DNA of 55,891 nucleotides from Planctomycetota bacterium (GTDB lineage Bacteria; Planctomycetota; Planctomycetia; JALXBF01). Within the stretch, counting starts at the first letter, position 1, and each line of letters opens with the position of its first letter. A program made the position numbers and the translations under genes. The notes beneath the pieces were generated by a model. The model did no database searches. It saw nothing but the letters and a program-made list of their open reading frames with translations, and was not told the DNA's origin. Positions 6,949 through 54,998 of this stretch are shown here, piece after piece. The stretch covers positions 1 through 55,891 of the forward strand of contig JALXBF010000104.1 of the NCBI GenBank assembly GCA_026991575.1. The letters run 5' to 3'.

Positions 6949-8031
6949 TTACCCAAGGGCAAGGCACTGGGAGTCAATCGCGGGCTGTTGCTGGGTGGCG
7001 CAGTGCACGGCACCCAGCCCCCAGATCAGCTCGCGGGCATCGAACGGAACCACCTGGCGGTCCGGATGGAGGCGCTGAAGCACAGAGCAAGCAGCAGCGT
7101 CCTCAGGACAGCCAAACACAGGCACGATGACAGCACCGTTGACGTAATAGAAATTAAGGTAGCTAGCGGGCAGACGCACACCTTCTCGTTCCAGCGGGGC
7201 CGGCAGCCGCAGCGGCACCAGCCGCCAGCGTACGCCCAGGGTATCCTGCGCCGCGCGCAGCTGAGCAAGCAGCTTCGCGCCCAGTCCCGCGTTCGCTTCG
7301 TCCCGCGGATGGTCCTGAGCGTACAGCACCGTGTCCGGCCCGCAGAAACGTACCAGCTGATCCACGTGCCCGTCAGTGTCGTCGCCGGCCAGTACAGCAT
7401 CGATCCAGACCGTGTGCGTCGCGCCCAGATACTGGCGAAACATGCTCTCCAGATCCCGGGCACCGACATGGCCGTTGCGCGACGGGGCCAGAAGACAGCG
7501 CGAGGCCAGCAGGACGCCGCGACCGTTGCTGTCGATGGCACCTCCTTCCAGCACAGCAGGCACGTCGACCGTCGAACAGCCCAGAAGCTGGGCGACGCGC
7601 CGCGGTACCAGGTCGTCCGCGTTCCAAGGAGGATATTTGCCACCCCAGGCGTTGTAACGCCAGTTGAGCACGACGGGCCGCAGGGGCGCCGCCCCCGCAG
7701 CACGTACGAAGATCGGCCCGTGGTCACGAATCCACGGCTCGTCAGAAGGGATCAAATGCAACTGCACGCGGTCGCAGCGGTCCAGGCCGCAAGCGGCCAG
7801 TCGACGAGCCACGACCCGGTAGAGGGCTGGCTCCGGTACGTTGACATGCACCGGCTCAAACGGCGCGATGGTGGCAACCAGTTCCAACCAGATCTGCTGG
7901 GCGCGCGCCTCCAACCCGGGAAAACTGATCGTCTCAGGCCGTGGCCAGCTCAGCCACGTGGCGACGTGCCAATCCCACTCGGCCGGCAAGACATACTGCA
8001 CGCGGTCCTGCGATCCAGGAACGAACGGCAC
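6949..8031 (-). CDS. aguA: agmatine deiminase family protein
   Basis: A member of the agmatine deiminase / peptidyl-arginine deiminase family, about 360 residues, which hydrolyses agmatine to N-carbamoylputrescine in polyamine synthesis. All signature blocks are present: LPAEWDWHVATWLSWP at the start, PWIRDHGP (near 99-106), LEGGAIDSNG (161-170), DDTDGHVDQ with the catalytic His (222), and GLGAVHCATQQQP with the nucleophile Cys344. The open frame runs on upstream to 8292, but that part is the translation of a tRNA gene. The true start is most likely GTG at 8031, just after the tRNA, or GTG at 8001. It lies 30 nt downstream of tRNA-Arg on the same strand. Confidence 0.9.
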   Translation of the reverse strand: MPFVPGSQDRVQYVLPAEWDWHVATWLSWPRPETISFPGLEARAQQIWLELVATIAPFEPVHVNVPEPALYRVVARRLAACGLDRCDRVQLHLIPSDEPWIRDHGPIFVRAAGAAPLRPVVLNWRYNAWGGKYPPWNADDLVPRRVAQLLGCSTVDVPAVLEGGAIDSNGRGVLLASRCLLAPSRNGHVGARDLESMFRQYLGATHTVWIDAVLAGDDTDGHVDQLVRFCGPDTVLYAQDHPRDEANAGLGAKLLAQLRAAQDTLGVRWRLVPLRLPAPLEREGVRLPASYLNFYYVNGAVIVPVFGCPEDAAACSVLQRLHPDRQVVPFDARELIWGLGAVHCATQQQPAIDSQCLALG

Positions 8032-8061
8032 TCCAAAGGCCCGCCAACAGGAATGGTTCAG

Positions 8062-8135
8062 CGTCCCCGGCAGGACTCGAACCTGCAACCTTTGGCTCCG
8101 GAGGCCAACGCTCTGTCCAATTGAGCTACGGGGAC
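8062..8135 (-). tRNA. tRNA-Arg (anticodon CCG)
   Basis: On the minus strand the 74 nt fold as a standard cloverleaf. The acceptor stem is GTCCCCG/CGGGGAC, the D arm GCTC/GAGC, the anticodon stem TTGGC/GCCAA with loop CTCCGGA (anticodon CCG), and the T arm GCAGG-TTCGAGT-CCTGC. The discriminator base is G. The 3' CCA is not encoded. It sits directly upstream of the agmatine deiminase gene. Confidence 0.95.
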
Positions 8136-32752: not shown

Positions 32753-33176
32753 CGGCTCCGGCCGATCCGCGGCGTAAGCAAACCCGAGTGCAGCGGCCAG
32801 TCCTGTCTGTTCAAGGGGGGCGTTTCAGCATTTGCAGCACTCGGGATTAGCCTGGGCGTTAGTTCGGCGTCGCGTGGTCGGTTGGGCGCGTGCCTGTGCG
32901 GTTTCGGTGACAGGCGAACCGGAGACAAACGGATTGGGCTGCCTACGTCGAACGGGCCGGGGGCCATTATGGCCCTGCCCCCAGTGCGCGCCGGAGCGCG
33001 CCCGTTCGACGAGGTAGAAGTCCTCGCCCGGGTATGGTGTGGACCCTGCGACCGAACGTGACTGGGTGCTTGCGACCGGGGGTGGACAGCGGCAACCCCC
33101 GGCGAGGGGATGGGCAAACCGAGCCGGTAGCTTGCGTTGATGGCCGGCAGGGGAGCTATATGCCCCCGCTGCCGCG

Positions 33177-33206
33177 AAATTGATTGGATAGCGCGGGCGC
33201 ATCTCC
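33177..33206 (-). repeat. dispersed short motif, copy 3
   Basis: Reads TTGATTGGATAGCGCGGGCG followed by CATCTCC. It matches the copies at 20561-20588 and 17051-17076. Here it lies inside the hairpin-rich intron fossil. Confidence 0.5.
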
Positions 33207-33234
33207 AAGAGATTTTGATTTTTTGCCTTCCCGG

Positions 33235-33298
33235 CCGCGGGCGGGTCGATCCCGCCCGCAGCTCGGGTGGTGCGGTTCGCTTGGGCTGGCGGTGAGCA
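33235..33298. repeat. 64-bp hairpin element, copy A
   Basis: About 83 percent identical by hand alignment to 42360-42423 (11 differences in 64 positions, mostly transitions). The core is an inverted repeat, GCGGGCGGG/CCCGCCCGC, around the loop TCGAT. The flanking GCTCGGGT and GGGC...GGCGG blocks are also conserved, so similarity extends beyond the hairpin. Confidence 0.6.
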
Positions 33299-33877
33299 CA
33301 AGCAGACATGGCTTAAGTCCGGCACGAGCGCGCATCCACCGCAGCGACGCCGCGAACGGCGGTCCGCTTGGTCCCCAGCGGACCGGGACAAACCAGAGCA
33401 TTGAACCGACAGGAGAAGCGGGCTATCAGGTGTCAGAGGGTCACAAGTAAGCGAGGCAGCGGGGTAATGGCCGTGGAGCGAAGGGACCCAGGAAGGTGGA
33501 TGCGTGGAGAACAGAGCTACGGAAGTGACCCCACCGTCAGTGCCCGAGAGGGCTAGACAAGGTGGAGAGACGGTACTTCCGGGGACGGGAGTGCGCGTCA
33601 AACCGTGGGGCTGGACGAAGCGCATGGCAAGGGCTTCCGCCAGAGTGGGCGGAGGGGCTGAACGCACCCTCTTCTCAGCAGTCAGCACATCGGATCGTTG
33701 TCCGAGAGCCGCTCGAAGTGCTCCGCAGCCACCGGACCGGCTGTGGCCGGAGCCGACCGTGTGCTCGGAAACTCCGAACGCCCACGCTCAGCGACGCCCT
33801 TCGCGCGGCCCTTCGGCGCAACACACGGCCAGAATGGCTACAATGCGGCACAGTGCCGGTTCAAGCGGGAGCCGCTC

Positions 33878-37406: not shown

Positions 37407-38255
37407 TTAGCTGACCCGGCGACGCCTCAGGTACGTAGCGCCGGCCGCACCGATCAGCCCCCAGAGTGCGAAGGTGGCCGGTTCCGGCGCGGCGTTGATC
37501 CGGAAATTCGACAGGTCACTGAAGTCGTATCCGTTGGCACCTGGCGCGAAGATCGTGCCTTCGAGCGAGACTTCTACCGAGTGGGTCACGCCGCCCAGGT
37601 CAGTCACAGTTACCGGAATGTAGATAACGCTGGGGCTGTTGCCGTAGGAACCGGACGCGTCCATCACGGTGAAGCCGCCTCGCTCGTTGTTGGCGCCGAC
37701 GCCGAGATCAGCCTCGAAGAAGTCCTCCGGCCCAACCAAACCAAGTGTAGCCTCATACTGATAGCCCACATTGAACGCATTGCCGGCAGCGAAGACGTTC
37801 GGGTCAATTACAGGCGACACCGGGTTGGGTCCGGAGATCACTACTGCGATCTCGTCTTGCCCAAGGGTACCCGTCCGGCCATTCTTCGGGTGGAGAGCCG
37901 GAGGCAAGAGGTCTAGCAGATCGTGGCTGTCGGTGTCGTTGTAATCTAGCGTGTACCGGGTGCCGCTTTGGGAAACGATCTTGGCCGAGAAGACGATGAC
38001 AATGCGATTGGGCTGCAGCCCGTACCCGTTCGGGTCTGGGTTCACGCCGGAGATAGCCACCCAGCCGTAAATGACGTCGCCGACCGTCACGCTGCCGCTG
38101 GAGTCCAGGTCGTCTAGCAGAGCTCTACTAGTATCGGTCAGTTCGTCTTCGACACCGTCTGCGACCACATAGGTGTCGACCATGCCGGCCTGAGCAGGCG
38201 ACACCAACCACGCAATGAACGCGAATGAGACGGCAGAACACAGTAGTTTCCGCAT
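37407..38255 (-). CDS. PEP-CTERM sorting-domain protein 1
   Basis: A 282-residue exported protein. It has a signal peptide (1-23), then a short calcium-loop-like segment, LDDLDSSGSVTVGDV (about 47-61), of the dockerin/EF-hand type (DxDxSGxVxxxD), then a beta-rich body. The C-terminal sorting signal is PEPATFALWGLIGAAG followed by TYLRRRR (from about 257). PEP-CTERM tails are recognised and cleaved by exosortase at the membrane, usually in organisms that make exopolysaccharide. GGAGG precedes the ATG and a strong terminator follows. A close paralogue lies upstream at 39724-40569. The body family is not recognised. Confidence 0.85.
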   Translation of the reverse strand: MRKLLCSAVSFAFIAWLVSPAQAGMVDTYVVADGVEDELTDTSRALLDDLDSSGSVTVGDVIYGWVAISGVNPDPNGYGLQPNRIVIVFSAKIVSQSGTRYTLDYNDTDSHDLLDLLPPALHPKNGRTGTLGQDEIAVVISGPNPVSPVIDPNVFAAGNAFNVGYQYEATLGLVGPEDFFEADLGVGANNERGGFTVMDASGSYGNSPSVIYIPVTVTDLGGVTHSVEVSLEGTIFAPGANGYDFSDLSNFRINAAPEPATFALWGLIGAAGATYLRRRRVS

Positions 38256-39723: not shown

Positions 39724-40569
39724 TCAGCTTCTACGTCGTCGGACGTAACCGGCAACACCAGCGCCCACCAAGCACCACAGCGCTAGCGAGCTTGGTTCGG
39801 GCGCAGCATTAATGGTGAACGTGGTCAAGTCACTGAAGTCATAGCCATTCGCGCCAGGGCTAAAAATCGTACCAAGCATGCTGACCTCGACGGAATGGGT
39901 TACGCCACCGAAATCCGTGATGCTAACAGGAATGTATATCACCCCTGGGCTGTTGCCGTACGAGCCCGACGCATCCATGACCGTAAAGCCACCTCTCTCG
40001 TTATTGGCGAAGGCGCCCAGGTCGACCTGGAAGAAGTCGTCTGGTTGCACAAGCCCCAGCGTCGCCTCATACTGGTAACCGCTCGAGAACCCGTTGCCGG
40101 CAGCGAACGTAGCGGGATCGACCACCGGCGAGACGGGGTTCGGCCCGGAGATCACTACAGCGATCTCATCTTGGCCGAGAGTACCAGTTCGCCCGTTCTG
40201 GGGATGAAGTGAAGGCGGAAGCAGATCAGTCAGGTCATGGCTGCCAGTGTCATTGTAGCCAAGCGTTGCAATCGTTCCTGAAATGGAAACGACCTTAGCT
40301 GAGAAGACAACTACAATGCGGTTGGCCTGCAGACCGTACCCGTTCGGGTCCGGGTTGACGCCAGAGATAGCAGCCCAACCGTAAACAACGTCGCCGACAC
40401 TGACACCGCCGCTGGCGTCTAGGTCGTCCAGGAGGGCGCGGCTCGTGTCGAGGAGCTGATCTTCAACGCCGTCTGCAACGACATACGTGTCCACCATGCC
40501 GGCCTTCGATGCGGTTGCGGCCCAGCCGAGAACCATGAGGATACCAGTTGCTAGGAAGAATCGTCGCAT
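39724..40569 (-). CDS. PEP-CTERM sorting-domain protein 2 (paralogue of protein 1)
   Basis: A 281-residue exported protein colinear with the one at 37407. Long blocks are identical or nearly so: AGMVDTYVVADGVED, DPNGYGL, TGTLGQDEIAVVISGPNPVS, NNERGGFTVMDASGSYGNS and GANGYDFSDL. The calcium-loop-like segment is DDLDASGGVSVGDV. The tail is PEPSSLALWCLVGAGVAG followed by YVRRRR. The ATG at 40569 is chosen because the signal peptide (RRFFLATGILMVLGW) starts there; the frame is open to 40644. Divergence is higher at the signal peptide and tail than in the body, which suggests an old tandem duplication followed by constraint on the body (inference). Confidence 0.85.
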   Translation of the reverse strand: MRRFFLATGILMVLGWAATASKAGMVDTYVVADGVEDQLLDTSRALLDDLDASGGVSVGDVVYGWAAISGVNPDPNGYGLQANRIVVVFSAKVVSISGTIATLGYNDTGSHDLTDLLPPSLHPQNGRTGTLGQDEIAVVISGPNPVSPVVDPATFAAGNGFSSGYQYEATLGLVQPDDFFQVDLGAFANNERGGFTVMDASGSYGNSPGVIYIPVSITDFGGVTHSVEVSMLGTIFSPGANGYDFSDLTTFTINAAPEPSSLALWCLVGAGVAGYVRRRRS

Positions 40570-42276
40570 CGGAAAACCCTCGCTTACCAAGTTACCAAGT
40601 GTCGTGAGACCAGGTGCCAGCAAGCGCTGGTCCGAACGTGCCACTGCTCGAACACAACTCGTGGGAGATGTCGGTCACGCGGCAGGTATTCGTCAGGGTG
40701 GGGGGCTGGGCGGAGCAGATCCAACTCGCTTGCGCGTTACTTGTGTGGGGGACAAGGCACGTGAGTTGGAGTCGCTTGCGATCGCGTCCGCAGGGTCTAC
40801 TAGAACCTCCGTGTTGTGCGCCCGTGCGTGATCATGCCGAACAGTCGGGATGAGGAGATCTGAGCAGAGTGTCTTGTCGGCATCGACGGGTAGGGGAACC
40901 AGGCAAACAAGGGACGATGTCTGGAAACCGACGGCGTGGATGGGAGCTGGAGCGCGTAAGTAAACGCTGGGAGAAATGTTGGGGCTGACGATGCCGGCAA
41001 CCGCCCAGTCGCTTGTTCGGCTCAGGAGGAGCACCACTGCAACACGCCATGCCAGGCCAGGGCTCAGCAACCTCAGCGTGGCAGGACCTGCTTCTTGTGG
41101 CTTACGCAAAGGGCGCATGGGTCACCGGGCGTCTATAGGCGATCAGTTCAAAGCGGTGCCGGCAACACTTCCGACACGCTCCTTTCGATACTTGCACCGT
41201 CACTGTCACAGATGGCCATGGGGTACTGTTGTGACCGGGAGCCGTGAGCTGCATGCAGCTGGAGGGAATGGCTTTGCGGATTTTGGCGGTCGCGCGGCTA
41301 TGGAGTGTGGTTTCCAACGCTCATGCCCGGGGAGTTGCTCGGCTGCCCGGTGAGTGCTGCACCGCGCCCGCTGGGGCGGCACGGGCGGTTGACGTTGATG
41401 CCGCAGGCAGAACCACGGAGGAGCGGGTCGGGATTGGGGGGCACCGGTTTGGCGATGACGGTGCATGTTCTGCGTGACGGAGGCGAATCGGGCATACCTG
41501 CCCGAACCAGGCAGCCAGATACGGATCGGAGGCCGGTGGAACAGGCACTACCGTGGGGCATTCTGAGTCGCAGTGTTTCGTGCCGCTTTGGACAAGCTGT
41601 CAGAGTCGGAGCAGCAGGTTCCTTCTGTCGGCCCAAGCGCGTTACTCGGCGCAGCATGCCGGCTACCGTGGAGGCCTCGCGGAGCGAGGGACCCGGGAAG
41701 GTGAAGGGCATTGAGTCGGAGGAGGCTGTGCGGTGGAACTGGAACCTGTCGTGATTTCTCGACCGGTTGGGCGGGGGTGGTCCGTGGATGCGTTGGTGGC
41801 AGGTTTGGGGAGGGATAAAGGTGAGCTGACTGGCGAGGTGCTCCGGGTCCGTGCACGATCGGGCCATGGGCACGGCGCAATCGAGCTTGCAGCACGCCAG
41901 CACGGTGCCCCCGGGAGATTAGCGAGGTGGTACCGCTTTGCGGACCGAGAGGGAGCATTGGGCGCCATCTTCGGCGTCACGGAACGCCAGCGGTCTGCCC
42001 TCGTGAGCAAACCAGCGGCTCGCGCAAGGGGGTTGCCACGCGGATGGGGTGGCAGATTCACCCGGCGGCGGCGCGCGGTGGTGACCTGCGGGGGCACTGC
42101 CGTGGGCCCGGCGGCGCGGCCCCGTGCACCCGCCCGCGCGGGGGGTTGGGAATCCATCTGCGATAGCGAGAACGGAACGATTCCCACCCGGGACCCAGCC
42201 GAGGAGAATTGCCTGGCGGTCTCGCCGAGTTGCCTTGATGGGCGGGCAGGGGGCTAGGCACTGACCAAGTCCGGCT

Positions 42277-42423
42277 GGGGGCATGGGCTTTATGCCCCCT
42301 TCCCGGAGAGCTGACGGGTCGCCCCGGCCGCAGTTAAAGGAAGTCCCAGCCCGACCGAGCCGCGGGCGGGTCGACCCCGCCCGCGGCTCGGGTACTGCGA
42401 CTCCCTCGGGCCGGCGGCGTGCA
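42277..42423. repeat. 64-bp hairpin element, copy B, with flanking hairpin
   Basis: Positions 42360-42423 align with 33235-33298. Here the hairpin is longer, a perfect 16-bp stem (42355-42370 with 42376-42391) around the loop TCGAC. Just upstream GGGGGCAT/ATGCCCCC forms an 8-bp stem (42277-42299). Zone A has a comparable stem (GGCAGGGG...CCCCCGCTGCC, about 33147-33173) at a similar distance, and both are preceded by TTGATGG. Confidence 0.6.
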
Positions 42424-43059
42424 GATCTCCGCTCCAGGTATCCACTGTATCCCGATGTATTCCGACCGGTGAGCGACGCTGGTGCTACTGGACTGCTACC
42501 GGCGGCACCGAGGGGCCGTCGCGGTCGGATCGGGGCGGAGCACCGGGCTGCTGTCCTGGGGGCCAACGACGTGCGTCGGCCCCGGTGGCGGCAAGCACCC
42601 TCGGCCGATACACGGGGTAGCATCGTGATCGCCACGGAGTTGAGGCAGGTGTCACTATTGGCAACAGAGGCGCCGCGAGAAGGAACAGTTCTCAGCAGCG
42701 ATTCGCCAAGCTGTGTTTCCAAAGACCGCGTAGACCGGCAGCCAAACCGTGGGATCCAGCCGTCTTGCGGCGGGACAACGATTTGGCACGCTAGTTGCAA
42801 AGCCCAGGACGTCTGACAAGGTGCTGGGCTGGCTCTCAGGGAGACGGCCCAGCCCGGCCGGGAGCTTGGCTGGTCGTTGTCACGGAAGGGACATGGCGGA
42901 CACTACCGCTCGTGAACATCACGTTCGCACGGAAGAGGGCTTGAAACCAGTCGCACCGGCTGGTAAACTGGCTGCTTGCGGAGATCTGGGTGAAACGGGC
43001 TAACGGGGTGGTGTCCTGCTGTTCTTCGGTCTGTCACGGATGGGGGATTGATACAGACT

Positions 43060-43665
43060 CCGCGCTGGAGGAAAGCGCGCCACCGGACCGCAACCGCGGC
43101 AAGCGCCACACTCGGAACGCGTGAAGGAGTGCCGCTTGCAGCGGTCGGGTCGCGGGTGCGTGGTGACGACGAATTGGGAGGTTTGGAGTAGAAGCAAAGA
43201 TGTGGTAGCCTAGAGAAACTGACTGATCCCGTAGGGTAGCGCTGTCCGGTTGACGCCGTAGGCCCTCGACACCGGGCAGCGGCCGGGGCCTTCCCTCTTC
43301 AGGGAAATGACAACGGAGCCAAAGGGGGATGTCGGGCGGGTTGGACGACAGCCTGCCACCACACGTTCGGAGAACTCGATCGAAAAACACCCCGAACCAG
43401 GTATGCCCCACATTGTGTTCGTGCGAGCGTGGGGTCCGACGCCAGAGGACGTCGTGTAAACCTGTCAACCACGGATGCGCGGGATGACGCTCGCGGCCTG
43501 ATGGCCGCTTGAGCGCCCCGTGATCGGCACAGGACGCGGGGCTCCGAGTGTATTCGAACGCCCCGCAGTCCGTGTGCCAACAAGCGGCACGGGCGGAACG
43601 GTCCGGTGAAGGAATCACCGCGTGAGGCGTTCGACCGTTCGGCCTGCTCGGGCTTCGCCCTAGCA
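43060..43665 (+). ncRNA. candidate structured RNA (cluster of long hairpins)
   Basis: Consecutive strong stems lie here. CGCGC/GCGCG is at 43061-43079. A 16-bp interrupted hairpin at 43094-43144 has CCGC, GCAAGCG and CACTC pairing with GAGTG, CGCTTGC and GCGG. TTCCCT/AGGGAA is at 43291-43306 and CGACG/CGTCG at 43437-43454. CGCTC plus GCGGCC pair with GGCCGC plus GAGCG around the loop TGAT (43488-43515). A 17-bp hairpin with two single-base bulges is at 43526-43578. GAACGGTC/GACCGTTC encloses CGGTGA/TCACCG (43596-43640). Minus-strand transcription would form equivalent stems, so the strand is a guess. I do not recognise a known RNA family. Confidence 0.35.
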
Positions 43666-44285
43666 CCTTGCGGTGGCTTACTGCGCTGCCGGCCAGCGCC
43701 ACCGACGAGGGTTTGGTCTGCAGTGCACTGGCGAGCCAGGTAACCGTTACTCGCGCCACATCAAGCAACACGATAGGTGCACGTTCGGCAACCAAACTGC
43801 GTCTGAGCGCCGGTAGCTCTGGCCCGGCTCGACGGAGATCGATTGCGTTTGGCCGATCGCCGCTGATCGACAGGCCAAGGCAGGCTCAGCAGACGGAGCT
43901 TCATTGCCAAAACGGAACGGACTGACGAAACGGTTAACCCCTCCTGCACATTTCAGCACACCCGGCGTAACGTCCCGCTGCTGTCATCAGCGTCGTATGC
44001 CGATGAGCCAGGCCCGAAACATGTTCCCTCCCTGTCTCCGCTTGCGGTACGCTGCGTGGGCAGGGCCGACAAACAATCCCCCTGTAGCCGCGGTGCTATT
44101 GAACCAACCCTTCGGATAGGGAGGCACAAACCCCCCCAATCGCCCATCCAAGCATGCCTGTGGACCCACCCCGTCGGACCTCCGAGCTCTATCGCTCATT
44201 CTTCCAGTGCTTGCATGCCCAAGACGCCGGCACAGGTAGCTAGCGACGTGTCGGGCCGCGCAAGAAGCGAACTGAACGGACCGGT

Positions 44286-45440
44286 GTGTTAGAGCGACGC
44301 ATACGCATCGCGCTGGTGACTTACTCCTTTGATTGCGGCGGCATCGAACGGTCGATCGCTTACCTGGCCAGCTACCTGCCCATCGAGCGGTTTGAACCCA
44401 TTATCGTGAGCCTCACGAGCAACGGCCCGGCTGCCCGCTGGCTTACGCGAGCGGTCCCCGTGCTGGAGCTCCACAAACCGCCGCGGAACGATGCCAGAAT
44501 TGTGGCCAGGCTGTCGCGCGTGCTTGCTCAGCACCGAGCCCACATCGTGCATTCCCACAATTGGGGCACGTTGGTTGAGACCGCGGTGGCTCGGCGCCTC
44601 TCCGGCACGCCCGTGCACGTGCACTCCGAACGTGGCACGGTCTTGGGCACGCTCGATCGATCGAGCTACCGTGCTCGGGCGCGCGCGATCGCGATGCGTG
44701 CCGTCTTGGCTCAGGTCGACGCTGTCGTCTCCAACGCGGCAGCGACAGCTGCCCGTGTTCATCGTGCCTGTGGATACCCGATACGCAAGATCCACATCAT
44801 CCCGAACGGGCTTCCCTGCCCGCTTGCGGCATCGAATGGCACGCGAGAACAGCTGCGCCGGCGTGTCCGCCAGCAGCTCCGGATCGCGCCAGACACGTTC
44901 GTGGTGGGGACCGTGGCCCGGCTGGATCCGGTGAAGCACCTCACCATGCTGATCGAAGCGGTCGCACGTGTTCGAGACCGCGAGCCGCGAGTCGAAGCCG
45001 TGATCGTCGGTGACGGACCCGAACGGGATCGGCTGGAACGAACCGCGCAGAACCTGGCTATTGCCGACCGGGTCCATTTCGTCGGTTACCAGGCCGACAC
45101 AGGACCATATTACGCTGCGATGGATGCGTACGCGAACACGAGCCTGAGCGAAGGCATGAGTCAGGCAATCGTCGAGGCGATGTCGGTGGGACTGCCGATC
45201 GTTGCAACCCCGGCTGGCGATACGCCACGGCTTATTGGCGGTTCACCGCCCTGCGGACTGCTTGTGCCACACGGTGATGTCGATCAGCTCGCGGACGCTC
45301 TGCGCCAGCTGGCGACCCGGCCGGAATGGCGCCGCCGACTTGGCGACGCGGCTGTCGCACGGTACCGCTCCGCTCACGACCTGCGGACGATGATCCAACG
45401 ATATGTCGAACTGTACGAACGGCTGGTGGCATCGAACTGA
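44286..45440 (+). CDS. glycosyltransferase family 4 (GT-B)
   Basis: A 384-residue transferase that adds a sugar during exopolysaccharide repeat-unit assembly on the cytoplasmic face. The N-terminal Rossmann half has SFDCGGIERSIAYLASYLP and VHSHNWGTLVETA. The C-terminal half has VGTVARLDPVKHLTMLIEA, VIVGDGPERDRLE, and the EX7E nucleotide-sugar motif in SEGMSQAIVEAMSVGLPIV. GDTPRLIGG and GLLVPHGDVDQLADAL follow. The frame begins with GTG at 44286; no strong ribosome site is seen. It opens the polysaccharide cluster and is 26 bp upstream of the nucleotide-sugar dehydrogenase. Confidence 0.85.
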   Translation: MLERRIRIALVTYSFDCGGIERSIAYLASYLPIERFEPIIVSLTSNGPAARWLTRAVPVLELHKPPRNDARIVARLSRVLAQHRAHIVHSHNWGTLVETAVARRLSGTPVHVHSERGTVLGTLDRSSYRARARAIAMRAVLAQVDAVVSNAAATAARVHRACGYPIRKIHIIPNGLPCPLAASNGTREQLRRRVRQQLRIAPDTFVVGTVARLDPVKHLTMLIEAVARVRDREPRVEAVIVGDGPERDRLERTAQNLAIADRVHFVGYQADTGPYYAAMDAYANTSLSEGMSQAIVEAMSVGLPIVATPAGDTPRLIGGSPPCGLLVPHGDVDQLADALRQLATRPEWRRRLGDAAVARYRSAHDLRTMIQRYVELYERLVASN

Positions 45441-45466
45441 GTCGCACCTCTGACGGGAACCGTTCG

Positions 45467-46783
45467 ATGAAGATCGCCGTCTTTGGCACTGGCTATGTCG
45501 GTTGCGTGACGGCTGCGTGTCTGGCACGCGATGGCCATCAGGTTATCGGTGTTGATATCGACACGTTCAAGGTGGCGCAGATCAACAGTGGCGAAAGCCC
45601 GGTCGAAGAGCCCGGTCTTGGGAAACTCATCGAACAGGCCGTCGCAGCCGGGAGACTGAAGGCTACCACAAACGCTCGCGAAGCGGTCGCGGCCACCGAG
45701 CTTGCACTCGTCACCGTGGGCACCCCCTCGAACGGTGACGGATCAGTTTCCACTCAGGCCGTGCTGCGGGTGACCGAATCCATCGGTGAGGCCCTCCGCG
45801 ACCTGCAGAAACCGTACGGCGTCGTGATCCGCTCGACGCTGCTTCCCGGTGTCCTCGAGGAGCAAGTCATCCCCCGGCTGATGGCAACCATCGAACCGGG
45901 CTTCCCCGGTGAGGAATACCCCGAGACCGTCTGGGTGGCTAACAATCCCGAGTTCCTGCGCGAGACGACGGCCATCCGGGACTACGACGAGCCCCCGTTC
46001 ATCCTGGTCGGTGCCGACGAACCGTGGCAGGCAGAGACCGTGTTCCGCCTGTATGAACGGGTCAAGGCTCCACGGTTCGCCACGGACACACGCACAGCAG
46101 CACTGGTCAAGTACGCGTGCAACGCGTTCCATGCCGTCAAGGTGGCGTTTGCCAATGAAATCGGCGCGTTGGCCCGCGAGCTGGGCGCGGACGGCCACGT
46201 GGTCATGGATTTGCTGTGTCGCGATACGAAGCTGAACATCTCCCCGGCCTATCTCCGCCCCGGATTCGCCTTCGGTGGCTCGTGCTTGCCTAAGGACCTG
46301 CGTGCACTGGTCCGTTGCGCCGAGCTGCACGCCGTCCGGCTGCCGATGCTGTCAGCCGTGCTGCCTTCGAATGAGGAGCATCTGGAGCGAGCGGTCCGGC
46401 TGATCCGCGAACGGGGCGTTCGACGGATCGGCATGGCCGGATTGAGCTTCAAGGCTGGTACGGACGACCTCCGCGAGAGTCCTCAGGTGACCCTTGCCGA
46501 GATCCTTGTGGGCAAGGGTTACGACCTGCGCATCTGGGATCCACACGTCCAGGTGACGCGGCTTCGAGGCCAGAACCGGGCCTACATCGACCGGCACCTT
46601 CCTCACCTGGCCGCCCTGCTAGTCGAGACGCCGGAGCAGCTGCTGGAGCACGCCGAGCTGCTGGTGCTGGCTACGGGCGTGGCCGATCAACTGGACCTGG
46701 ACGGATTTCACGGGCCTGTGCTTGACCTGCGAGTCGACCTCTGTCGCCCGCCACGCCGCGCGGCAGCTGGTTCGCCGGTGTAG
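45467..46783 (+). CDS. nucleotide-sugar 6-dehydrogenase, GDP-mannose (AlgD-like) type
   Basis: A 438-residue NAD-dependent dehydrogenase that oxidises a nucleotide hexose twice to the uronic acid. The Rossmann start is KIAVFGTGYVGCVTA. The catalytic block GFAFGGSCLPKDLRAL contains Cys273, preceded by CRDTKLNISPAYLRP. That wording is closer to GDP-mannose dehydrogenases than to typical UDP-glucose enzymes, so GDP-mannuronate is the more likely product, though UDP-glucuronate cannot be excluded. The third domain has GLSFKAGTDDLRESP. The ATG at 45467 coincides with the Rossmann start; the frame opens at 45326 inside the previous gene. It supplies precursor for the polysaccharide made by this cluster. 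Confidence 0.85.
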   Translation: MKIAVFGTGYVGCVTAACLARDGHQVIGVDIDTFKVAQINSGESPVEEPGLGKLIEQAVAAGRLKATTNAREAVAATELALVTVGTPSNGDGSVSTQAVLRVTESIGEALRDLQKPYGVVIRSTLLPGVLEEQVIPRLMATIEPGFPGEEYPETVWVANNPEFLRETTAIRDYDEPPFILVGADEPWQAETVFRLYERVKAPRFATDTRTAALVKYACNAFHAVKVAFANEIGALARELGADGHVVMDLLCRDTKLNISPAYLRPGFAFGGSCLPKDLRALVRCAELHAVRLPMLSAVLPSNEEHLERAVRLIRERGVRRIGMAGLSFKAGTDDLRESPQVTLAEILVGKGYDLRIWDPHVQVTRLRGQNRAYIDRHLPHLAALLVETPEQLLEHAELLVLATGVADQLDLDGFHGPVLDLRVDLCRPPRRAAAGSPV

Positions 46784-46786
46784 TCA

Positions 46787-49342
46787 GTGCCCCACGATCT
46801 CGCCTCACCCGTCATGGTTTCCCTGCCCAAGTTGGCTCGGCTGTCAGTTGCCGAAGCGCGCGCTCGGCTGGAAGAAAAGCTTTCCACCGCGCGCGAGCGG
46901 CTCCGGCCGTGCCGCGACGGGGTTCGCTTCGATCCCGACCGCTTCCGCCGAAACCTCCGGCGGTTGCTACCAGGAGCGAACCCGGGGGCGATCCGTGCCC
47001 TGGAGCAGCAACATTCCGATTTCGTCGCTCGCATCGCGGACCGAGTCCGCACGCGGGTCGATCAGATCGAAAGCAACCGACTTCACCTGCTGTGGCATCC
47101 GGCAGACCTTACGCCCCCCGTTGACTGGCACCGCGACCCGAAGGTGCCATCATTCCGCTGGCCCGCCGATCGCTTCTACGCGGACATCGACTATCACGCT
47201 GCGGACGTTCCCGATGTGAAGTTCGTCTGGGAGCTGAACCGGCACCAGTTCTTCGCTGATCTCGGAGCGGACTGGTTGATCCGGCAGCGTGCCGCATCCG
47301 CAGACCGGCTGCGGCAGTACCTGCTGAGCTGGATCGATCAGAACCCGCCTTATCACGGAGTCAACTGGACCAGTGCCCTGGAAGTAGCCGTCAGAGCCAT
47401 CAGCTGGCTGTGGTCGCTAGCCCAGACGGCCGACTGGTCTGGATGGACGGAAGGCGACCTTACACGCATCGCCCACTGCCTGACAGACCACGCTCGGTAC
47501 CTCGTCCGGCACCTGTCGCTGTATTCCAGCCCGTACAACCATCTGATGGGCGAGGCGGCCGGGCTGTACTGGATCGGGCAGGGACTCCGAGGGCTGGTGC
47601 CCGAGGCCAAACGCTGGCGCGAACGCGCTGCATGGGTTTTCAGACGCTATGCGAACGATCAGTTCGGACCGGATGGGTTTACTGTCGAACAGGCTACCGG
47701 ATACCACTTCTTCACGCTTGGATTCCTGGTGCTGGTGCAGCAAACCGCGGAGCGACTGGCCGACGGACGGCTTGCCGAACTGCTGAGGCCGGTGGTCCAT
47801 CGAGCCTTCCGAGCTGGCGCGGCCTTCGCTGGCCCGGACGGCCGCTGGCCGGCGATCGGAGACATCGACCTCGCACGGTCCTTGCCTGTCATTCACCCGA
47901 ACCTAGACGAATTCTGGGACTTCCGCTCGTTGTGCAACCTCGGGGCGGTCTTGTTCGAGGATCCGGAAATCTACTTCCCGGAGGCTGGGCCGTCGGAGGA
48001 AGCCTACTGGTTGCTGGGGCCGAAATCGGTCGAAGCCTACAGGAGACTCGAGGCCAGAGCAGTCCCAGTCGCTAAGGCCTCACCGCTGAGGCCAATCGGG
48101 CTGTGTTCTCCCGTGATCTGGTCGCGAGGCGACAGCACAAAGCCGGGTCGGAAAGCCCGGGTTGGGTATGCACACTACGGTGGAAGGTTTCTGCTGGATT
48201 GCGCTCCGATCGCCGGAGGGCTCTTTCCGGACGACACACCATCGGCCGCTCACGGTCACCTGGACCTGCTTCAGGTTCTCGTGTGGCTGGATGGAAAGCC
48301 GGTGGTCGTCGATACCGGGATGACCAGCTACCGTCGTGAGCACCCGCTGTTTCGTTACCAGCGTTCGGCGGCCGGCCACAACACCATTGAGGTCGTGGGC
48401 TGCCCGTGGGCGGAATACGCTGGCGGGCTGGCGTGGCGGCGAGCCATCCAGCCGGATCGACTGGATCTGAGGTATCTGTTCAGCGAGGAGTTGGGCGTGG
48501 CAACCGCCGAGATACGCCTTCCCGGCGGTGGGCGGCTGCGCCGCACGGTCGCATCGTTTGCCTCCGACGGCATCTGGGTCGTGGATGAGCTTCGCACGGG
48601 CCCGAAACTCAGTACGGTCGATCGTCCCGATCGGCCGTCAAACCGGTTCCAGCACCTGTATTCGTCCCGGCGGGAACGCCCAAAGACACCGCCGGCTCGC
48701 AGCACACAGCGGGCAAGTACCGAGTTCGCGTCGCGACGACCGTGCGACCCACGCGAGCTACGCTGGTACTGGCACCCGGCGGAGACCGTGGACAGCTTTG
48801 ACGGGGACCCGTCGGCCGTGTTGGCCGCCAACCGCAATGCCGGCAGTAACCGCCGCAACGGCAACCTGATTTCGCCTTCCATGATGCCGCGCGTCCTGCG
48901 TGCTCGTTGGGGCGGCGTCATGTGCCGTGTCTGGATGGGGGGCTGGGACCAGGTTCGCACTGAGCATTGCCTCGCCAAGGACGACGAGTCCGATCCCGCA
49001 GGCTGGAGGTCGCTCGGCTACGGTCATCAGCAACCCGGGTCGCAGATTTCGATCGCCGCACGGCCGACGTCTCGGCACGCCGTCGCCGTCACGTGGTTCG
49101 GGCTGAACGAACCGCGGGCGGCCCTGCGTATCGGTCCGTACGAGTTCGACCTTGGCCTGCGGGTACCAGCAGTGGAACGATTCGGGATCCACAGTCCTGG
49201 CGAGGAGATGACCTGGTTCCTGCCGGACGGCGCGCAGTGGGTGGTGGCACTCGCAGTCGGCAACATAGCCGCGTGTTCTGAGCGGGCCGTTGCGGTCGAG
49301 GGCGTCGGCGAACTCACCGTGCTGCGCTGGAGCGTCCCGTAA
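46787..49342 (+). CDS. heparinase II/III-family protein
   Basis: An 851-residue polysaccharide-lyase-like protein. The N-terminal half is an (alpha/alpha) toroid with VWELNRHQFFADLGADWL, VNWTSALEVAVRAISWLWSL, SSPYNHLMGEAAGLYWIG and VEQATGYHFFTLGF. The C-terminal half is the heparinase II/III beta-sandwich with SAAHGHLDLLQVLVWLDGKP (HGH motif), VDTGMTSYRRE and RSAAGHNTIEV. Such proteins cleave uronic-acid polymers by beta-elimination and are common in exopolysaccharide clusters, where they trim or release product. No signal peptide is obvious. The start is GTG, three bases after the stop of the dehydrogenase gene; an ATG at 46814 is possible. Confidence 0.85.
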   Translation: MPHDLASPVMVSLPKLARLSVAEARARLEEKLSTARERLRPCRDGVRFDPDRFRRNLRRLLPGANPGAIRALEQQHSDFVARIADRVRTRVDQIESNRLHLLWHPADLTPPVDWHRDPKVPSFRWPADRFYADIDYHAADVPDVKFVWELNRHQFFADLGADWLIRQRAASADRLRQYLLSWIDQNPPYHGVNWTSALEVAVRAISWLWSLAQTADWSGWTEGDLTRIAHCLTDHARYLVRHLSLYSSPYNHLMGEAAGLYWIGQGLRGLVPEAKRWRERAAWVFRRYANDQFGPDGFTVEQATGYHFFTLGFLVLVQQTAERLADGRLAELLRPVVHRAFRAGAAFAGPDGRWPAIGDIDLARSLPVIHPNLDEFWDFRSLCNLGAVLFEDPEIYFPEAGPSEEAYWLLGPKSVEAYRRLEARAVPVAKASPLRPIGLCSPVIWSRGDSTKPGRKARVGYAHYGGRFLLDCAPIAGGLFPDDTPSAAHGHLDLLQVLVWLDGKPVVVDTGMTSYRREHPLFRYQRSAAGHNTIEVVGCPWAEYAGGLAWRRAIQPDRLDLRYLFSEELGVATAEIRLPGGGRLRRTVASFASDGIWVVDELRTGPKLSTVDRPDRPSNRFQHLYSSRRERPKTPPARSTQRASTEFASRRPCDPRELRWYWHPAETVDSFDGDPSAVLAANRNAGSNRRNGNLISPSMMPRVLRARWGGVMCRVWMGGWDQVRTEHCLAKDDESDPAGWRSLGYGHQQPGSQISIAARPTSRHAVAVTWFGLNEPRAALRIGPYEFDLGLRVPAVERFGIHSPGEEMTWFLPDGAQWVVALAVGNIAACSERAVAVEGVGELTVLRWSVP

Positions 49343-49479
49343 ACGTCCACATCAGCGCATCCGTAGTGCGGGTCGATCCGATCGGCTTGATCGGGGCCAG
49401 ATTCCGTCCGGTTGCCAGACCTACCGCTAACACGAAACCAATACTCCTCAATAGCCAAACGCCCCCACCGACGTACCCG

Positions 49480-50409
49480 ATGCTAAACGCGTTCACGGTT
49501 GACGTCGAGGATTACTTCCATGCCGCGAACCTTGCGGTACCACCACGCGATTGGGAGACGCTGCCCCAGCGAGTTGTCCCCAACACATTGAAACTCCTCG
49601 AACTGCTGGCTGAGCACGGTGTGAAGGCGACTTTCTTCGTGCTCGGCTGGGTGGCGAAGCGCTACCCTCACCTGGTGCGCGAAGTCGATCGAGCCGGCCA
49701 CGAAATCGGCAGCCACAGTTTCTGGCACCGCTACGTGTACGAGCTGTCGCCGGAGGAATTCCGCAGGGATCTGCGCGAGAGCCGGGCGGTGCTGGAGGAC
49801 CTGACGGGCAAGCCGGTGACGGCTTTTCGCGCACCGACGTTCTCGATCACAGACCGGTCCCTGTGGGCGCTGGACGTCTTGGCTGAGGAAGGATTCACGC
49901 TGGATTCGAGCATTTTCCCGATCCATCATGACCGTTACGGCATTCCGCACGCCCCGGCAGAGCCGTTTGATGTGTTGACTGCTTCGGGAAGGATCCGCGA
50001 GGTTCCCCCGGGCGTGTGTCGGCTGGGATCGGGAAGGCTTGGATCTGGGCTGAATTTTCCGATCGGCGGCGGAGGGTATTTCCGGTTGCTTCCGGTTCGG
50101 CTGTTTGTCTCGTTGGTACGTCGCGTGAACGAGGTGGAAAAGCGGCCGGTGGTGTTTTACCTCCATCCGTGGGAGCTGGATCCGCATCAGCCCTGTCTGG
50201 CCACCGGCGTACTCAACCGCTGGCGTCAACGTCAGGGCCTGAGCAGCTGCCTCCCCAAACTCCGCCGCCTTCTGCGCACCTTCCCCTTCGGGCCCCTCAC
50301 TGCCATTACCGCACCCGCTCGCACACTCGTCCCGGACGACCTGCAGGGGCGTCTTAACGGCAAGCCCGTTTTGGCTACGGCTCCGTTCACCGTCAGGGTG
50401 CTTGGCTGA
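49480..50409 (+). CDS. XrtA-type polysaccharide deacetylase (NodB + DUF3473-like)
   Basis: A protein of about 309 residues removing N- or O-acetyl groups from the polymer. The NodB metal site starts with LNAFTVDVEDYFHA (Asp8, Glu10, Asp11). It continues in AGHEIGSHSFWHRYVYELS (His79, His83) and FRAPTFSIT. The C-terminal part (FPIGGGGYFRLLPVRLF, VVFYLHPWELDPHQP) matches the DUF3473 tail of deacetylases linked to exosortase (XrtA) loci. The start is ATG at 49480; 38 upstream in-frame codons look non-coding. It lies about 140 bp after the heparinase gene. Its presence predicts an exosortase elsewhere in this genome. Confidence 0.85.
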   Translation: MLNAFTVDVEDYFHAANLAVPPRDWETLPQRVVPNTLKLLELLAEHGVKATFFVLGWVAKRYPHLVREVDRAGHEIGSHSFWHRYVYELSPEEFRRDLRESRAVLEDLTGKPVTAFRAPTFSITDRSLWALDVLAEEGFTLDSSIFPIHHDRYGIPHAPAEPFDVLTASGRIREVPPGVCRLGSGRLGSGLNFPIGGGGYFRLLPVRLFVSLVRRVNEVEKRPVVFYLHPWELDPHQPCLATGVLNRWRQRQGLSSCLPKLRRLLRTFPFGPLTAITAPARTLVPDDLQGRLNGKPVLATAPFTVRVLG

Positions 50410-50648
50410 GGGCGGCAGAAGAGCTGCGTTGGGCAGGCGCCGACAGAAACGCTGGATCGGGTAACCGGGGGGCCTGGTTCGGTAGCACGGGGGCGGCGCA
50501 TTTCACGGCGCAACAATGTGCGCGTATCGCGTTTCCCGCGCGATCGAACGTGGGGAACCCGGACGCGGGGAAAAGGCAAAGGCCAGTGGCTGCTTTCCAT
50601 CGATGCGCGGTGCCCGTAGAGAACCACAACGTGGGGCGAACCGAGAGC

Positions 50649-51524
50649 ATGCACCGAGACGTCCGTTGGCTTGTACTTGACCAGTGGGTTGAGGGTGACG
50701 GTGAGTTTCTTAGGCGCTACCGGACACCAGGTTGGAAGAGCGTGATGGACCTGGGACTGGGGATCCCGTTGTTCCTGGTGTCGCTGCCTTTGATGCTGGT
50801 GATCGCCATTCTCGTGCGCCTGACCTCCAGAGGGCCTGCTCTGTTTACTCAGGAGCGGGTTGGTGAGCGTGGCCGCATCTACACGCTATACAAGTTTCGG
50901 TCGATGAGAGTGGATGCGGAGGCAAAAACGGGGCCACGGTGGGCAACGCAAGACGACCCTCGCCAGACGCCGCTCGGCCGGTACCTACGGAAACTCCATC
51001 TAGACGAGCTGCCGAATCTCTGGAATGTCCTACGCGGCGAGATGTCGCTTGTCGGCCCCCGCCCTGAGCGCCCGCCCTTTGTGCGCACGCTGGCGGCTAC
51101 GATACCGGGTTATGTGAATCGGTTAGCGGTCCGGCCAGGAATCACGGGGCTTGCTCAGATCCTGCTACCGCCGGACACGTGCACGGACGATGTACGAAGG
51201 AAACTCGTCGTTGATATGTACTACATCCAGAACCAGAGTGTAACTTTGGATCTCAAGATCCTCGCTGTGACGTTCCTTAGGCTGTGCCGGGTTCCGCTAT
51301 CCTGGTGCTTATGGCTGACTCGCTTACCTTCGCTCGAGGATATAGGTGTGCCTAATAGGGAAGAAAGACGAGAGGACACGTGTCGGGCCGCAGGAAGGGA
51401 AACAGATGCGTCCGCAGACCAGAGTTTGGGAGGCGCGCGTAGGTCTCTATGGCGTTGTCAAGGTGGACCGGCGGACGCATCCGGAACGGAAATCCTGGCT
51501 CACAGGCACCCGGATCAGGGGTGA
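50649..51524 (+). CDS. priming sugar transferase (undecaprenyl-phosphate phosphoglycosyltransferase)
   Basis: A protein of about 291 residues of the bacterial sugar-transferase family that starts polysaccharide repeat units by moving a phospho-sugar onto undecaprenyl phosphate. A re-entrant hydrophobic segment (VMDLGLGIPLFLVSLPLML) precedes SRGPALFTQERVGERG, YKFRSMRVDA, and the catalytic stretch LHLDELPNLWNVLRGEMS followed by LVGPRPERP. The later RPGITGLAQIL and DMYYIQNQSVTLDLKIL blocks are present. The N-terminal multi-span part of WbaP-type enzymes is absent. The last 45 or so residues after SLEDIGVP are unusually charged and may be read-through into non-coding sequence. The start is ATG at 50649. 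Confidence 0.85.
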   Translation: MHRDVRWLVLDQWVEGDGEFLRRYRTPGWKSVMDLGLGIPLFLVSLPLMLVIAILVRLTSRGPALFTQERVGERGRIYTLYKFRSMRVDAEAKTGPRWATQDDPRQTPLGRYLRKLHLDELPNLWNVLRGEMSLVGPRPERPPFVRTLAATIPGYVNRLAVRPGITGLAQILLPPDTCTDDVRRKLVVDMYYIQNQSVTLDLKILAVTFLRLCRVPLSWCLWLTRLPSLEDIGVPNREERREDTCRAAGRETDASADQSLGGARRSLWRCQGGPADASGTEILAHRHPDQG

Positions 51525-52990: not shown

Positions 52991-53645
52991 GGCCCCTTCC
53001 CCGTAACTCAGCTTGCCCATAGGATAAGGAATCCCAGAGATGGGCATCCGTAGCGTGCCGTCCCTGGTATGTTGGCCCAACCGCTTCGACCGATTCCGCT
53101 CACCACACAGCAGCCAACTCCAACGGCGTTTTAGTGTTCTCTGCCGCGCTCCTCGGCCCACGGCGGCTCCTCCTCGTGATTCTCGCGCCAGCATCCTTGC
53201 ACGGGAGCGACCGAGAAGGAAGCTACTCTGCCCCCCCGACAAGCCAGCGGCCGATTGGCGAGAACCCGGTATGGCCGGACCGACAGAAGCGACGACGGAA
53301 AGGCACCACTTTGGCCGGCCCTAGAGCCACGGGTGTCGTGTGCCCCATGTCGGCCGCGGGGACCAAGTGAAAGAAGGCCTTTCCATGGGCCTCCCGGGCA
53401 CCCGCTGCTGTGCTACGTTGCAGTGTATGCCCCTTACCGCGACGTGGATGGGCGATGCGGCCGACTCGCCCGGGACGCGGACTAGTGCCCATACAGTGTG
53501 CACGCGACTTCGCCGGGCCGCAACCGTATGCGACTATCCGGAGCGACGCAATGCCATGGGCCGCCCCGGTGTCCGGATTCGGTGTTCCTGAGAAGAAGCC
53601 TCGCCGGCGAGGCGACTCTATCACTTTTATCGCAAATTGTCGCAG
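52991..53645. other. gene-free stretch before the polymerase gene
   Basis: Open frames on both strands lack recognisable domains. It is probably debris from the neighbouring transposons and must also hold the promoter of the downstream polymerase gene. No promoter boxes or ribosome site stand out. Confidence 0.35.
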
Positions 53646-54998
53646 ATGAGTCTCACAGCGCTTGCCTGGATCCTGGGCCTCCTTGTCCTAACCATCGGCG
53701 CCGTAGCCCGCTCCAGTTGGGCAATCGGGCTCTACTTCTATACGTTCTTCATGTTACCTGACTTCTGGTGGTGGGGACGCTCCGCCGGGCTGCACGGCTA
53801 CCGGTGGTCGCTAATGAGCGGTGTACTGTCGCTCATCCTCATTTGGGTGCATTGCCGTCGCCGCGGACGCCGGTTTATGAGGGTCGATGGCGCGGTGGAT
53901 CTGTTGGCAATCGCCATCTTAGTGAATGCGACGCTCGTCCATATGTTCCTGGCACCAAACTGGGCTATCAGCCTACATGCCTACCAATACGTGGCGAAGT
54001 TCGTGCTCTTGTACTTCATGATTCGTGATGCCATTGCGACCAGGAAGGACCTGTGGACAGTAATGCTGATGCTGCTCCTCTTCGCTGGCTACATAGGCTA
54101 CGAGGTGACAATCAACGACCGCGGCAATATCCAGCGCGGCCGCCTTGAGGGGGTGGGAGCCCCCGGGGCAAGGGGGGCGAACCAGCTAGCTTGCCTAATG
54201 ATAACGATCCTGCCATTGGTTAGCACGAACCTTATCGGCCCAGGTTGGACGCGTAAGGCATTGACGGTATGCCTTGCACCGCTCGTCTTGAACGTGGTTC
54301 TCGAGGCGAACAGCCGCGGTGGATTTCTAGCCGGCATCGGATCGGCGATCGTCTTCTACCTGATGAGCCCTCGAGGTGCCCGGCGTTATGCTGCATACGG
54401 CTTGTGTGCGGGGGCGATGGCGCTATGGGTGCTGCTCGGTGATCCGAGGATTGTGGAGCGCTTCATGACGACCTTCGTGCCGAGTTGGGAGCGGGACCGG
54501 GCGGCGGCGGAACGTTTGATTCTGTGGCGGGCTGGGCTTGCGATGGTAGCCGACCACCCGTTCGGGTCTGGAGGGGCTGGGTTCAAACTAGTACGCGGCA
54601 GGGCGTACATGCCGGACGTGGGGTTGCAATATAACGTGCGCTCGGTGCACAATGGATATATTAACGAGATGTGCGAGTGGGGGATCCAAGGATTGCTGTT
54701 GAAACTGGGCTTCCTGGGGTTGGCTGCGGTCGGTGCATGGCGGACGTCCAGAATGCTGAGTGCGCGCGGGGAGACGCGGGATGCGCTCGTTGGGGCAGCG
54801 ATCGTGGCGGGAATGGCGGGATTCGGTGTAGCTGCTGTATTTGGGGATTATATGGATGCAGAATGGGGCTACTGGATGGCGGGCTTCGCAGTAGCGTATC
54901 GTAGGATATTTGGTGGAGGTGAGAGGAGAGCCACAGGGAGGACGATCCGACATGTGGCGGAGGTATGGAGGGAGCGGGCTGCTCCGGTTGCGGTGTGA
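53646..54998 (+). CDS. O-antigen ligase/polymerase (Wzy)-like membrane protein
   Basis: A protein of about 450 residues with ten or more membrane segments, of the O-antigen ligase/Wzy type that polymerises or ligates lipid-linked repeat units at the outer face of the membrane. The diagnostic region is the large late loop, where ERLILWRAGLAMVADHPFG is followed by SGGAGF and then VRSVHNGYINEMCEWGIQGL. This matches the family's W..al.m...hPl.G.G...f and vHN.yl....e.G..gl pattern. An earlier EANSRGGFLAGIGSAIVF is also typical. The ATG at 53646 is preferred to a TTG three codons earlier. It is separated from the rest of the polysaccharide cluster by 2.1 kb of transposon debris. Confidence 0.8.
   Translation: MSLTALAWILGLLVLTIGAVARSSWAIGLYFYTFFMLPDFWWWGRSAGLHGYRWSLMSGVLSLILIWVHCRRRGRRFMRVDGAVDLLAIAILVNATLVHMFLAPNWAISLHAYQYVAKFVLLYFMIRDAIATRKDLWTVMLMLLLFAGYIGYEVTINDRGNIQRGRLEGVGAPGARGANQLACLMITILPLVSTNLIGPGWTRKALTVCLAPLVLNVVLEANSRGGFLAGIGSAIVFYLMSPRGARRYAAYGLCAGAMALWVLLGDPRIVERFMTTFVPSWERDRAAAERLILWRAGLAMVADHPFGSGGAGFKLVRGRAYMPDVGLQYNVRSVHNGYINEMCEWGIQGLLLKLGFLGLAAVGAWRTSRMLSARGETRDALVGAAIVAGMAGFGVAAVFGDYMDAEWGYWMAGFAVAYRRIFGGGERRATGRTIRHVAEVWRERAAPVAV

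Follow-up and report, generated by a model that had tools for sequence, protein, structure and literature searches.

The hairpin-rich stretch at positions 43060-43665 of the window (the whole 55,891 nt of planctomycete DNA analysed here) probably overlaps a noncoding RNA gene with its own promoter. Its visually striking hairpins are not the conserved part, which consists of the promoter and a core at 43175-43304. The original prediction of a non-coding RNA is supported, at the level of sequence comparison, by the conservation of a sigma-70-type promoter and of a non-coding core, and by the presence of three paralogous copies in the genome. From the predicted folds and the gene neighbourhoods of these copies we favour, tentatively and at somewhat under even confidence, a cis-acting attenuator or antitermination leader, serving an exopolysaccharide operon in the window and a NusG-paralogue gene on contig C50.

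A search with 42900-43700 of the genome from which the window comes (G000; 191 contigs, 4.96 Mb) found one other place, on contig C114. The match was 79% identical over 126 nt, defining a core common to both sites at 43175-43304 (+), and weak homology extended it to about 184 nt (43175-43358). The core alignment scored 75, compared with a highest score of 20 among 300 shuffle pairs. Since mismatches within the core show no codon phase (8/4/6), it is not a hidden gene. Scanning for promoters revealed a sigma-70-type promoter at 42941-42969 (+), composed of TTGAAA, a 17-nt spacer ending in TGG (extended −10), and TAAACT; this was the sole promoter-like site in 41400-44400 (0.3 expected). On C114, TTGAAA-17-TAGACT with an extended −10 occupies the aligned place (L010 6233-6261), again as the sole site in the scanned region (0.2 expected). 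Allowing one mismatch at most, TTGAAA-N17-TANACT was found a single time on the two strands of the whole window and a single time in the 14-kb C114 locus, at matching positions. The score of the promoter-block alignment was reached by 2 of 300 shuffles, and the promoter-to-core distances at the two sites differ by only about 7 nt. The roughly 200 nt between promoter and core are unconserved, their local alignment being matched by 195 of 300 shuffles. They make up the variable 5′ part of the putative transcript (42976-43174, +; start near 42976 placed from the −10 box), which includes a 16-pair hairpin at 43094-43144, located as originally predicted. Such selective keeping of promoter and core would be the pattern expected of a transcription unit.

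The other hairpins that had drawn attention to the region were likewise found in place: one at 43526-43578 folding at −34.3 kcal/mol, one at 43488-43515 with 11 pairs and a TGAT loop, and one at 43596-43640 that folds as had been described. The proposal that they form an unusual cluster did not hold. Perfect stems of at least 7 bp number three, which is ordinary for such G+C content: dinucleotide shuffles gave 1.96 ± 1.34 such stems and reached three or more in 62 of 200 cases, and 50 of the 183 bins of the window equalled the count. The expectation of a folding energy better than that of shuffled sequence was borne out modestly on the plus strand, with z-scores of −2.17 and −2.58 (2 of 100 dinucleotide shuffles as good), and in a scan of 372 windows of 300 nt, 43261-43560 (+) ranked as the fourth most extreme (z −3.3). 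The fold of 43060-43665 is therefore somewhat exceptional, unlike the clustering of its stems. Unexpectedly, the same region folds more exceptionally still on the minus strand (z −5.6 and −4.5), although the promoter lies on the plus strand. By far the most extreme folding energy in the window belongs to 5461-6060 (+), with a z-score of −8.1 for 5761-6060 (+), opposite a minus-strand open frame at 5091-6551.

No relative of the hairpin cluster at 43365-43665 (+) was detectable in the window's own genome or in the C114 copy, and the other copies contain nothing that corresponds to the hairpins originally cited at 43488-43640. We consider it about evenly balanced whether 43365-43665, apart from the core, is simply a functionless G+C-rich intergenic stretch whose stems arose by chance. 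Its shuffle-level stem count and its lack of a relative speak for that reading; the local z-score of −3.3 in 43261-43560, which derives partly from the conserved core, speaks against it. The original prediction had also proposed that GTGCC at 43574-43578 could pair with either of two partners in exclusive folds. It can indeed pair with either GGCAC and a two-state fold does seem possible, but the predicted one lies about 250-300 nt upstream of GTGCC and GGCAC.

As had been observed from the letters alone, no protein family accounts for the region, in which no Pfam domain was found. The suggestion of a ribozyme-type element was not upheld. A search with 4227 Rfam models, including group II introns, GOLLD, ROOL and HEARO, found nothing in 41400-44400, even with the threshold relaxed to E ≤ 5; these large ornate RNAs and group II introns are also long, noncoding, G+C-rich folds. 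The idea of a degraded intron fared no better, with no Intron_gpII match and the domain V pattern absent from the window. At gathering thresholds, the whole window contained only a tRNA at 8062-8135. RNase P RNA was considered and set aside, as a clear one sits elsewhere, on C158. The element may thus be an RNA switch for slime-sugar genes that has gone unrecognised, and not a ribozyme or a dead intron.

Searching the genome with the C114 copy brought out a third copy, at C50:19055-19130 (84% identity, E 4.7e-15). What the window (contig C104), C114 and C50 have in common is an 89-nt module, detected by BLAST and by model R2, at 43216-43304 (+) in the window and C50:19051-19134, with pairwise identities of 65-84% among the three copies. 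Model R2, built from the three modules, scored C114 at 107.4, the window at 90.5 and C50 at 86.4 bits; since R2 derives from those very copies, its scores characterise them and are no proof of them, for which the BLAST matches supply the independent evidence. A weak match on C20, a candidate fourth copy, was rejected as due to chance, as it falls inside an open frame that presumably encodes an alanyl-tRNA synthetase.

The folds predicted for the module are mutually exclusive and resemble those of a transcription attenuator. Near its start is a small hairpin, CCC-GUA-GGG at 43228-43236 (+), which reads CCCC-GAA-GGGG in C114 and C50. An early hairpin, P, is predicted at 43240-43281 (+) with arms at 43240-43250 (CGCUGUCCGGU) and 43271-43281 (ACCGGGCAGCG); folding gives its stem 11 bp in the window and about 7-8 bp in the other two copies, where the arms are GCGGUGUC/GGCACCGC (C114) and GUGCGGU/ACCGCGC (C50). 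A terminator-like hairpin, T, is predicted at 43233-43296 (+), pairing AGGG (43233-43236) with CCCU (43293-43296) and UCCGG (43245-43249) with CCGGG (43283-43287), followed by CUUC. The two exclude each other. Without its last 20 nt or so the module is predicted to fold as P; once the 3′ arm is added, T, which uses up the P arms, becomes the minimum in C114 (−44.9 kcal/mol) and C50 (−39.6 kcal/mol) and is followed there by a pyrimidine-rich tail. T is strong in these two copies and weak in the window copy, where P is the stabler fold (−31.4 versus −21.5). T is followed by a weak U-tract and is not called by the terminator scan. Covariation among the three copies amounted to one two-sided change, with 280 of 500 shuffles as good, and the two-copy alignment folded on the plus strand no better than column shuffles (z about +1).

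The three copies differ in what lies around them. On C50, 22 nt separate the end of the module (L079:7135) from the first ATG of an open frame at L079:7157-7864. Similarity to homologues starts near residue 22-24 of the encoded protein, and an in-frame ATG is present there, so the true gap between module and gene may be about 90 nt. The protein, of 235 amino acids, carries NusG (NGN) and KOW domains and resembles the antiterminators UpxY (E 4.5e-20), LoaP and RfaH, in every case below the curated cut-off. In the window, the copy precedes an exosortase-A-type (XrtA) polysaccharide cluster on the same strand, about 980 nt from its first gene and with no convincing gene between. The first same-strand gene downstream encodes a GT4 glycosyltransferase of PEP-CTERM/XrtA type (44286-45440; TIGR03088-like, below cut-off). 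It is followed, also on the plus strand, by genes for a UDP-glucose/GDP-mannose dehydrogenase (45326-46783, the listed start overlapping the preceding gene), a heparinase II/III-like protein (46787-49342), an XrtA-system polysaccharide deacetylase (49366-50409; TIGR03006, above cut-off), an exopolysaccharide sugar transferase (Bac_transf, 50550-51524), and an O-antigen-ligase-like protein of the exosortase A system (53637-54998). Two proteins encoded on the minus strand, at 37407-38255 and 39724-40644, show weak PEP-CTERM signals at their C termini (below cut-off), which fits the exosortase-type polysaccharide cluster. With respect to attenuation, promoter and operon stand far apart in the window; on C50 the gene is adjacent and the promoter is uncalled, no site matching 9 of 12 promoter positions having been found on the plus strand before the copy. 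C114 has the promoter and no same-strand gene close downstream, and a LysR gene (7097-8056, minus) faces the copy.

In the mechanism we propose for the leader, the promoter at 42941-42969 would drive a noncoding transcript starting near 42976. As the module is synthesised it would form the short hairpin P, and once the 3′ arm emerges it would rearrange to the long G+C-rich T followed by the pyrimidine tail, where RNA polymerase would stop or pause. If P were kept, or a factor recruited, transcription could read through in cis into the exopolysaccharide operon or the NusG-paralogue gene. The factor could plausibly be the NusG paralogue whose gene lies right after the C50 copy.

The same elements could instead make up a family of free-standing, trans-acting RNAs of about 330 nt, each with a promoter, a variable 5′ part and a conserved 3′ part, T serving as its own terminator and the neighbouring genes being incidental. 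We judge this somewhat unlikely. It accommodates the self-contained C114 and window copies, whose promoter-to-T lengths are similar (about 330 nt), the lack of a same-strand target gene close downstream on C114, and conserved blocks such as GAAGCRAAGATGTGGTA inside the core. It fits poorly with the position of the C50 copy immediately before a regulator gene and with a T tail that is no good U-tract, and no target is known.

A rather less probable explanation is that the copies are what is left of a mobile or duplicated noncoding element, low in copy number and carrying a promoter by chance, their sequence kept by recent duplication and not by selection. Three observations speak for such an origin: a decayed insertion sequence, of which further copies exist, occupies the neighbouring stretch at 41669-42422; the module is limited to three copies, and a search of about 650 other genomes gave no convincing relative; and its structural conservation does not rise above that of shuffles. 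Plain decay of a recent duplicate, however, would not keep the promoter hexamers and the core and lose the 200 nt or so between them, and the repeat search gave no pair of terminal inverted repeats bounding the element.

The insertion sequence itself was traced in the window (41669-42422 and 33094-33367) and at L011 1113-2434 and L012 5725-7004, its copies lying on C117 and C184; in the C184 copy what reads as a broken transposase fragment (one stop written as X) matches Pfam DUF772. A perfect 16-bp hairpin at 42355-42391 recurs beside the other copies. A sub-threshold remnant resembling group II intron domains V/VI (L012 7098-7174; Intron_gpII 21 bits, E 0.065) adjoins the decayed insertion sequence.

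The search for relatives covered 298 genomes of the class by DNA comparison, with no convincing relative, and, with model R1, the same class sample plus 392 genomes of the phylum, in which only the window's own genome was found apart from a match in G250 that is weak and looks like a G+C-rich terminator. The two samples together comprise about 650 different genomes. The relatives listed in the first search were all 'same class' only, so close relatives are probably absent from the sample. Plasmid and phage collections gave no credible match. Viral contigs contained CCGGTTGACGNCGTAGG in 24 matches, about the chance estimate, and none extended convincingly. Two exact patterns gave 0 and 22 matches in genome contigs, the 22 falling in unrelated taxa and finding no support from R1.

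With model R2, genus g4 (family f4) gave weak matches, the best at E 2.6e-4 per genome. These belong to a genuine intergenic repeat, dispersed and about 200 nt long, that has no Rfam match and also occurs on one contig of the viral collection. We claim no homology to the module, as model R3, built from the g4 repeat, misses all three copies here; the short string GCAGNGGCCGGAGCCG was no commoner than its reversed control. The repeat, which is possibly an undescribed RNA of this genus of the same class, was located at L116 1501-1725, L117, L123, L130/L185, L171 and L170, and at L165 2700-2940 (minus); it is present at least three times in a single genome, and its GGGTACTCACGCC and CGGGCAG blocks are invariant.

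A minus-strand protein gene of 253 amino acids at 43034-43795 is very improbable: the open frame exists and its strand is strongly folded, yet it has no Pfam match, several frames show similarity simultaneously, and the mismatches lack codon phase.

Returning to the attenuator or antitermination leader, we compared it with known systems. A documented precedent is LoaP, a NusG paralogue whose action depends on a hairpin in the leader together with an intrinsic terminator. The LoaP/dfn system of Bacillus velezensis resembles the present one in combining such a paralogue with a 5′ leader that carries both elements ahead of a biosynthetic operon (PMC12691694). In contrast to LoaP targets, none of the three leaders here contains a UNCG hairpin with a stem of at least 4 bp, and the C50 paralogue scores 37 bits against a LoaP cut-off of 125. 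In enterobacteria, RfaH with its ops/JUMPstart element ties a NusG paralogue to surface polysaccharide genes and a leader element, a combination also seen here; however, the three leaders lack an ops-like GGYGGTAGY, and the C50 protein reaches 36 bits against the RfaH cut-off of 144.5. Without the UNCG hairpin and the ops-like sequence, the leaders belong to neither system; by analogy, they may work in a similar way. UpxY, a protein of Bacteroides capsule loci, is the best-matching family of the C50 protein, which differs in scoring 72 bits against a curated cut-off of 100 and in being encoded outside the polysaccharide operon. EAR, in the eps leader of B. subtilis, is a structured RNA of a polysaccharide-operon leader that promotes antitermination and, to our knowledge, involves no NusG paralogue; the likeness is one of description, and no Rfam family matches here at E ≤ 5.

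Homologues of the UpxY-like NusG paralogue are encoded in 142 of the 298 sampled genomes of the class, about half, and the regions upstream of its 29 best relatives contained neither the module nor an enriched 9-mer. That the module represents a new class of planctomycete RNA element, through which a UpxY-like NusG paralogue controls processive transcription from its own leader and that of a polysaccharide operon, with an autoregulatory copy before its own gene, is a broader proposal that we regard as quite doubtful. The literature searched held no RNA signal for UpxY-like NusG paralogues, and a promoter-linked module common to the leader of the paralogue and to a polysaccharide operon offers a specific candidate that can be put to the test.
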